Assembly: GCA_949296375.1 (NCBI GenBank)
Contig: CASFQX010000110.1
Coordinates: 1 to 38,422, forward strand
Reading direction: 5' to 3'
Source: an uncultured Olsenella sp.
GTDB taxonomy: Bacteria > Actinomycetota > Coriobacteriia > Coriobacteriales > Atopobiaceae
Length of the DNA stretch: 38,422 nucleotides
Part shown: positions 9,241 to 10,424 of the stretch, piece after piece
Numbering within the stretch: the stretch's first letter is position 1
How the letters are laid out: every line of letters starts with the position of its first letter
The notes under the pieces: model-generated
Database searches by the model: none
Told to the model about the DNA's origin: nothing
The model's input: only the letters and a program-made list of their open reading frames with translations
Position numbers and translations under genes: made by a program

Positions 9241-9555
9241 CTACGCCTCCCAGGAAAAATTCTTCATATCCACGCTTCCGGTGGACAAGAAGCCCACGCC
9301 CTCCGCCTCGAGCATGCGGCGCTGCTCACCAGGACCGCCAAAGGCAAAGCCAGGTGCCAGTGAGCCATCCGCGAATACCACGCGATGACATGGTACGCCG
9401 CCGGCAACTCCAGGGCTTCCGTGCATGGCGTATCCCACCTGCCGTGCGCAGCGAGGCGCGCCCATGAGGCGTGCCACCTGACCGTAGCTGGCAACGCGAC
9501 CCTCGGGAATCTGCCTCACCACATCCCAGGCGCGCTCGAAGAATCCCTCGTTCAT
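9241..9555 (-). CDS. MGMT family DNA alkyltransferase, single-domain form
   Basis: A 104-aa protein that consists only of the DNA-binding and active-site domain of O6-alkylguanine-DNA alkyltransferases. It has the helix-turn-helix SYGQVARLMG, the arginine finger in CARQVGYAM and the active site GVPCHRVV. The reactive cysteine is kept, so it is not an alkyltransferase-like (ATL) protein, which would have Trp there. The N-terminal RNase H-like domain of Ogt/AdaB is missing, as in many small homologues. I start at the ATG at 9555, preceded by GGAG. An in-frame start at 9666 would add 37 residues encoded by an inverted-repeat element, and I reject it. Confidence 0.85.
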   Translation of the reverse strand: MNEGFFERAWDVVRQIPEGRVASYGQVARLMGAPRCARQVGYAMHGSPGVAGGVPCHRVVFADGSLAPGFAFGGPGEQRRMLEAEGVGFLSTGSVDMKNFSWEA

Positions 9556-9866
9556 GTGTGATGCTCCATCCTCGCTCGAAGCGCTTGAGGCAGTATTTTG
9601 GCCCTCCGGTGTCAGTTTGAGGCCCGTTTGTGTGGCAATTCTCTTCCCAATTTGTCGTTTCGTCAAAACATGGCCGCATCATCCCAGATAACGATTTCTA
9701 TTGATTCGATCGCTTATGCGATTTTTGCGCCCGCTCACACAAACGAGGCAAAAACTGACACCGGAGGGCCAAAATACTGCCTCTGAGGCTCCCGGGAGCT
9801 CAAAATCACCCTTTGCATCAGCCCAACGTGGTAGAGTCGTCGCCAACGCAACCTGGAGGGAGCCTC
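9556..9866. other. Divergent intergenic region carrying an inverted-repeat element
   Basis: About 310 bases without a supported gene, between the divergent starts of the alkyltransferase (-) and the isochorismatase-like gene (+). Most of it is the 9587-9783 element described separately. The remaining 83 bases on the right hold the ribosome site of the isochorismatase gene; I see no convincing -35/-10 pair there. Confidence 0.6.
9587..9783. mobile_element. MITE-like element with about 48-bp terminal inverted repeats
   Basis: The ends 9587-9634 and 9736-9783 are inverted copies: the outer 32 bases are identical when one arm is reverse-complemented, then 4 mismatches fall in 7 bases, then 9 identical bases. 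The core arm reads TTTTGGCCCTCCGGTGTCAG. The 101-base middle is more AT-rich and has no gene. Both arms have a TA close to the end (9593-9594 and the matching site near 9776-9777), which would suit an IS630/Tc1-type TA target if the true element is slightly shorter; no other clear target duplication is seen. No transposase is in the window, so if mobile it is non-autonomous. A long hairpin RNA or double-sided regulatory element is the alternative. Confidence 0.65.
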
Positions 9867-10424
9867 ATGAAGACCGATCTTTCAGCCGCCGCACTGCTTG
9901 TCATCGATGCCATCGAGGCAGTGGGCGACGACTCGCTCTACGACCCCGACGCCGCGACCGCCGCCTACCGCGCCGCCGTCGCGCGCTCCGTGGCCGCCTG
10001 CCACGCCGCCGGCATCCCGGTGATCTACTGCAACGACGCGCACGTTCGCGGCATGGACCGCGAGCTCGACCTCTGGGGCGATCACGGCATCGCCGGCGAG
10101 ACGCGCATCTTCCCGGAGATCGAGGTGGGGGAGGGAGACATCATCATCCCCAAGCGCCGCTACTCCGGCTTCTTCCAGACCGACCTCGACCTCACCCTGC
10201 GCGAGCTGGGCGTAACGACTGTCATCGCCGTGGGCGCAGACACCAACATCTGCGTGCTCCACACCCTGGCCGACGCCTACTTCAACAACTACGCCTCCGT
10301 CGTGGTGACCGACGCCACGATGACCTTCCTCTGCGGCACGCAGGAGGGCGCGCTCGAGCACTGCGAGAAGTGCTACGGCTCCAAACTCGTGACCGTGGCG
10401 GAGCTCGAGGACGCCCTGGCGTAA
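9867..10424 (+). CDS. Isochorismatase-family cysteine hydrolase
   Basis: A 185-aa cytoplasmic hydrolase of the nicotinamidase/isochorismatase superfamily. The catalytic triad Asp-Lys-Cys is visible: Asp14 in VIDAIEAV, Lys96 in IIPKRRYSGFFQT and Cys129 in GADTNICVLHT, with the family cis-peptide region just before the cysteine. The substrate cannot be told; amides such as nicotinamide or ureido acids are possible, and the nearby flavodoxin and alkyltransferase do not help. The ATG at 9867 has GGAGGGAG a few bases upstream. An upstream in-frame start at 9813 lacks a ribosome site and adds 18 unrelated residues. Confidence 0.88.
   Translation: MKTDLSAAALLVIDAIEAVGDDSLYDPDAATAAYRAAVARSVAACHAAGIPVIYCNDAHVRGMDRELDLWGDHGIAGETRIFPEIEVGEGDIIIPKRRYSGFFQTDLDLTLRELGVTTVIAVGADTNICVLHTLADAYFNNYASVVVTDATMTFLCGTQEGALEHCEKCYGSKLVTVAELEDALA

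Follow-up and report, generated by a model that had tools for sequence, protein, structure and literature searches.

Dispersed inverted repeats that are tied to a single gene are best described for the REPIN/RAYT systems of bacteria. Two inverted units surround a diverse spacer, the elements lie between genes, and the associated gene is single-copy and vertically inherited (PMC8049555, PMC3116915). The RAYT gene is bracketed by the repeats, evolves faster than its neighbours and controls the repeat number (PMC2817692). A second arrangement is that of the AbiEi proteins, whose promoters have 23-bp inverted repeats to which the proteins bind (PMC7319586). DUF559 and REase_MTES_1575 are Vsr-like PD-(D/E)XK families (PMC3710099).

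The window analysed here is a 38,422-nt stretch of DNA from an uncultured Olsenella sp. genome (G000). It holds a long inverted repeat between two divergent genes, which the initial annotation described as a MITE-like element. We think it probable that a nuclease-type, Vsr/DUF559-like protein, whose gene lies in the same genome between pyrophosphatase and ABC-F genes, uses this element and its dispersed copies as DNA targets, in an arrangement that would resemble REPIN/RAYT and use an unrelated enzyme. Open-licence literature on DUF559 with inverted repeats, on MTES_1575, and on Thermophilibacter and Collinsella repeats does not describe this arrangement. The central core, the fixed length and the partner gene are additions to the initial annotation.

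Anatomy of the element and its family

An inverted-repeat search reproduced the coordinates and arms of the annotated element, with 48-base arms around a 101-base centre and an outer 32 positions that are identical between the arms (Table 1). The arms are 92% complementary over their length. This is the sole inverted repeat in the 38-kb window that scores at least 17 with a loop of 60-130 nt, and its predicted fold has an energy of -104 kcal/mol compared with -49 ± 4.3 for shuffled sequences (z = -12.7). The centre had been described as coding for nothing visible, and no real gene was found within it. Between the element and the start codons of its neighbours lie 31 bp on the alkyltransferase side (ATG at 9555, minus strand) and 84 bp on the isochorismatase-like side (ATG at 9868). 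Inspection of the element ends for a target-site duplication revealed no direct repeat.

Table 1. Features of the inverted-repeat element and its flanks (window coordinates).
Feature	Position	Strand	Description
Whole element	9587..9783	no strand	197 bp, dyad-symmetric; one of 12 copies in the genome
Left arm	9587..9634	+	48 nt; inverted-repeat search
Block A	9587..9593	+	GAGGCAG (family RRGGCAG); arm comparison, alignment
Variable arm spacer	9594..9609	+	16 nt; differs from copy to copy
Block B	9610..9634	+	family TGTCACTTTnnGCCTCRTYTGWGKG; arm comparison, alignment, substitution counts
Centre	9635..9735	no strand	101 nt; sequence drifts except for the core, length retained
Core	9683..9687	+	CCCAG; exactly on the dyad, middle base 9685
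Right arm	9736..9783	-	inverted copy: block B 9736-9760, spacer 9761-9776, block A 9777-9783
Flanking gene	9241..9555	-	O6-alkylguanine-DNA alkyltransferase-like; context only
Flanking gene	9868..10424	+	isochorismatase-like; context only

BLAST located 10 more copies in G000 (11 with the window element), with similarity confined to the arms. Named records that carry the arm pattern indicate that the genus is Thermophilibacter (Atopobiaceae). A sequence-only model was built from 46 aligned elements, and copies were counted as matches divided by two strands. The model gives about 24 copies in G015, 16 in G026 (T. gallinarum), 15 in G001, 13 in G011, 12 in G000, 11 each in G004 and G006, and 9 in G025. 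Most of the remaining matching genomes have 1-3 copies and eleven have none. A model scan with stricter filters found no family element in the sampled Coriobacteriales outside Thermophilibacter, and a pattern scan found no arm pattern in viral contigs.

Throughout the family the arm consists of a terminal block A, a variable 16-nt spacer and block B (consensus sequences in Table 1); each single arm starts with RRGGCAG and is not a palindrome. The core on the dyad is usually CCCAG, CCGCAG or GCCTG. Extraction permitted lengths of 150-260 bp, and all 60 extracted elements measure either 196-199 bp or 186-187 bp. In the 197-bp class the core lies 48/49 nt from each arm; in the 187-bp class the core-to-arm distance is 37/38 nt on one side. 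The shortened side is the opposite one in four of the 187-bp copies, three of which are in the element alignment. The two length classes differ by one helical turn of DNA.

The initial annotation also considered a long hairpin RNA. If the element were transcribed into an RNA with a 48-bp stem, for regulation or processing, this would account for the strong predicted fold and for arm pairing above that of shuffled and slid controls. However, arm spacer positions are unpaired in about half of the family copies, element length shifts by helical turns, and Rfam scans returned no family, the sole matches being weak ones to generic miRNA hairpins, which score far under the gathering level. Covariation was evaluated as proof of an RNA stem and rejected; the arm correlation is strong overall but weak within one arm type when one copy per locus is used. 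The excess pairing may instead be explained by putative binding blocks shared by the two arms. With centres whose orientation to the flanks differs from species to species, and with an arm spacer that frequently fails to pair, a hairpin RNA is not supported, and we regard this explanation as very doubtful. Two long near-perfect hairpins elsewhere (L032, 356-451 and 4201-4296) are unrelated to the element and give weak miRNA-family scores on both strands.

Age, selection and inversion of the copies

Comparison of intergenic slots between species was used to judge the age of the copies. The same slots are filled in up to six species (six each for the C92 and C55 slots, five for the window slot). 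At the window slot, G001 and G011 have clear relatives of the element with 82-85% identity, and G004 and G006 have strongly diverged elements. Many other species have only a short intergenic stretch, and the window-locus sites lacking an element are too diverged for any target-site duplication to show. Substitutions were counted between G000 and G001 at 11 slots, with block A taken as positions 3-7. Changes were found at 0 of 110 positions in block A, 18 of 506 in block B and 9 of 154 in the core, versus 203 of 929 in the rest of the centre. The difference in rates indicates that the arm blocks and the CCCAG core are under purifying selection in place and that the rest of the centre is not. 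The element had been called recent; the filled slots and selected blocks contradict this.

The centres are inverted relative to the flanks at four slots among close relatives, and the neighbouring genes around the copies are divergent, convergent or tandem. Together, the shared slots, selection, centre inversion and mixed gene orientation point to a function at the DNA level that would be orientation-independent, and away from a promoter, terminator or RNA. The suggestion that the element drives or insulates both of its neighbours cannot describe a general role because gene orientation around the copies is mixed. Centre inversion is what would be expected of a phase-variable switch in which the arms are recombination sites that flip the centre. 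Such a switch is nonetheless highly improbable, given that the apparent crossover positions vary between loci, the flanking genes and their orientations are unrelated, the centres share no promoter, and one orientation is kept at most slots.

The element is, like a MITE, short, non-coding, multi-copy and bounded by inverted repeats. Ordinary MITEs that belong to an unseen DDE transposon and have by now largely lost their mobility would explain the terminal repeats, the dispersed copies and the near-identical centres at two places in one genome (G001 C9 and C14). These two centres (L065 and L070) are 99% identical at different slots, and one arm position is altered on both sides between them, suggesting conversion between copies and between arms. 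The C14 copy was considered as a recent insertion that would prove mobility, and was rejected. Where G001 has the full element, G011 C172 retains a lone 36-bp outer arm (L199, about 291-326), which is a decaying slot. The remnant makes conversion of an old slot as likely as a new insertion in G001 C14. Unlike a MITE, the element is old and sits in fixed, selected slots: several species share filled slots, the arm blocks and core are far more conserved than the centre between orthologous copies, and no DDE transposase was found. No insertion with a target-site duplication was seen among the compared slots. The initial annotation noted that no transposase with such ends lies in the window, and none was found; the genus scan revealed no long element with the family ends, and every strong arm belongs to a short pair. 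What stands of the MITE-like description is a dispersed, non-coding inverted-repeat family, and what does not is its recency, with no parent transposon found. An ordinary MITE is disfavoured and quite unlikely.

Candidate partner gene and its paralogues

The candidate partner is a 356-aa protein whose gene is flanked by those for a Mn-pyrophosphatase and an ABC-F ATPase. Nine genomes (G000, G001, G004, G008, G011, G015, G021, G025 and G026) encode close orthologues, which are 57-83% identical to the G011 protein. All nine loci have the order Mn-pyrophosphatase, partner gene, ABC-F ATPase, and inheritance is therefore vertical. An element adjoins the partner gene in nine of nine species and stands on both sides of it in five (G004, G008, G011, G025 and G026). 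In G011, G025 and G026 one element ends about 82 bp before the gene and the other starts about 4 bp after the stop codon. G004 and G008 have the same type of bracket at somewhat greater distances. G000 also has a contig, C208 (L262), with a partner-gene fragment whose protein is identical to that of G011 and which represents the same locus as contig C165; C208 is probably a contaminating contig (the assembly's listed contamination is 5.15%).

Element number is higher in genomes with an orthologue than in those without (Mann-Whitney p = 9.8e-6, a test that ignores kinship among genomes). The exception is G006, which has about 11 mostly weak elements and no close orthologue. The partner protein diverges faster than its neighbour. 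The pyrophosphatase proteins of G001 and G011 are 98% identical, the partner proteins only 69%; the G000/G001 partner proteins as a pair have 69% identity to that of G011, with pyrophosphatase identities of 94-98%. The arms differ between the same species. Nearly all G000 and G001 arms end in GTTTGTGTG, and the other species mostly have GTCTGAGKG; G025 and G015 arms end mostly in RTCTGAGKG, and those of G011 and G026 are mixed. In G011 both arm types are present, although its protein is C-type. At slot L072/L163 the flanks are 98% identical and both arms differ in exactly the arm-end motif, which means that the motif changes without replacement of the element. By sequence comparison, arm type and partner protein appear to change together.

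Pfam and NCBIfam have no match to the 356-aa orthologue, profile comparison with solved structures brought up nothing relevant, PADLOC returned nothing, and the AlphaFold prediction is of low quality (pLDDT 37). It is a member of a large protein family with several copies per genome across the Coriobacteriales and weak matches across the phylum. Paralogue L285 matches DUF559 at 25.6 bits (cut-off 20.6), and six paralogues match REase_MTES_1575 weakly (best E = 0.0073). These matches fall in the C-terminal part of the paralogues, and it is on them that the putative nuclease character of the partner rests. Catalytic residues predicted for the protein of T. gallinarum DSM 107455 are D239, D257/D259 and H264. 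Vsr acts at CTWGN-type sites, and the core of the present element is CCWG-like. In contrast to the families described in PMC3710099, the putative nucleases of the Coriobacteriales are stand-alone, multi-copy and paired with hairpin elements.

The gene-element association extends to the paralogues. A long inverted repeat with unrelated arms adjoins 20 of 35 distinct paralogue genes (22 of 37 loci, two being duplicates), and shuffled sequences gave none. A 308-kb control sequence contained 25 such repeats outside the masked list; 14 of them are elements of the present family under other locus numbers, and the remaining 11 correspond to 0.04 per 1.1 kb. An SCWG motif lies within 2 nt of the dyad in 14 of 23 paralogue hairpins on an automatic list, compared with 2.0 expected off centre (maximum 7 in 5000 trials). 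On a hand-made list it lies within 6 nt in 16 of 23, versus 4.8 expected. The hairpins are not fully independent because some are related to one another. The hairpin family of paralogue L282 is a second dispersed one, in G009, G016 and G019. Many paralogues (L257-L286, L316-L332) have their own inverted or direct repeat motifs beside the gene, such as GGGAAGTGAGCG in G027 and CTCATTTGTAGGGTA in G009, and some of these are clearly repeated several times.

Comparison with known systems and proposed mechanism

As in REPIN/RAYT, two inverted units surround a diverse spacer, the elements are dispersed between genes, and one vertically inherited gene, faster-evolving than its neighbours, stands between copies of the same repeats; changes in the gene and in the repeats go together, and repeat number tracks the gene. 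The likeness is a functional analogy only. The candidate protein is putatively PD-(D/E)XK (Vsr/DUF559-like) rather than a Y1 HUH transposase (PF01797), the arms are about 48 bp with no REP palindromes carrying GTAG/GGAG-type heads, the element is about 197 bp with fixed helical spacing and a CCWG core on the dyad, and copies number in the tens, not the hundreds. Lacking both a Y1 transposase as the enzyme and REP palindromes as the arms, the system falls outside the REPIN/RAYT class. RAYT-like genes for Y1 transposases (Y1_Tnp, about 250-320 aa) are common in Thermophilibacter, occurring in 28 of 31 genomes, and a classical REPIN/RAYT system acted on by such an enzyme was considered. No Y1 gene adjoins an element in G000, G001, G004, G011 or G026, however, and Y1 presence does not follow that of the elements; in G026, a genome with 16 elements, Y1 is represented by no more than a 128-aa open frame. 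There is very little chance that this explanation is correct.

The main rival explanation sees in the protein a regulator that binds DNA, or a nucleoid architect, and in the elements its operators or looping sites, comparable to the long inverted repeats of AbiEi; there would be no nuclease-driven copying, dispersal would be old, and the sites would be selected for a host function. Fixed helical spacing, orientation independence, strong selection in place and the near absence of new insertions would all fit, and the adjacency of gene and element could also reflect an autoregulated DNA-binding protein. AbiEi is likewise a protein linked to long inverted repeats beside its own gene. On the other side, the elements stand behind the gene as often as before it, dispersed copies lie between genes of every orientation, and a CCWG core on the dyad is absent from the AbiEi sites as described in PMC7319586. 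The present repeats also differ from those sites in that they lie 50-120 nt apart around a central core, are frequently placed after the gene and are scattered through the genome. The partner differs from AbiEi in its putative nuclease-like C-terminal part and in its gene neighbours, a Mn-pyrophosphatase and an ABC-F ATPase, among which no AbiEii (DUF1814) toxin partner was noted. We consider a regulator or architect unlikely, although it is the alternative to be taken most seriously.

The preferred reading, a nuclease-type protein with a dispersed DNA target, leads to a mechanism that we infer as follows. Protein subunits would bind blocks A and B of the two inverted arms, and the DNA between the arms would be looped or wrapped with both arms facing the same way. 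The need for the arms to face the same way would explain why element lengths differ only in steps of about one helical turn. The CCWG-type core on the dyad, or its immediate vicinity, would be the site at which the nuclease domain acts. If an element were cut on rare occasions and then repaired from another copy, a small element population could persist, and an element might sometimes be copied or inverted in the process.

For the order as a whole, the balance tips slightly toward an expanded Vsr/DUF559-like family in the Coriobacteriales in which each protein has its own hairpin, with private arms and a CCWG-type site on the exact dyad. Some of these pairs would have seeded long-lived, genome-wide populations, and they would form a class similar to REPIN/RAYT but of independent origin, derived from a different nuclease fold. 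The family also illustrates how what looks like a MITE can be a DNA element that is long-lived and under selection. The core on the dyad and the one-turn spacing rule provide precise predictions for binding and cleavage. If the proposed mechanism is correct, bacteria possess a second, unrelated kind of enzyme that keeps up populations of dispersed hairpins, and the REPIN/RAYT arrangement would be a recurrent solution rather than a quirk of one transposase family. A common, unannotated protein family of gut Actinobacteria would thereby gain a DNA target and a testable activity.
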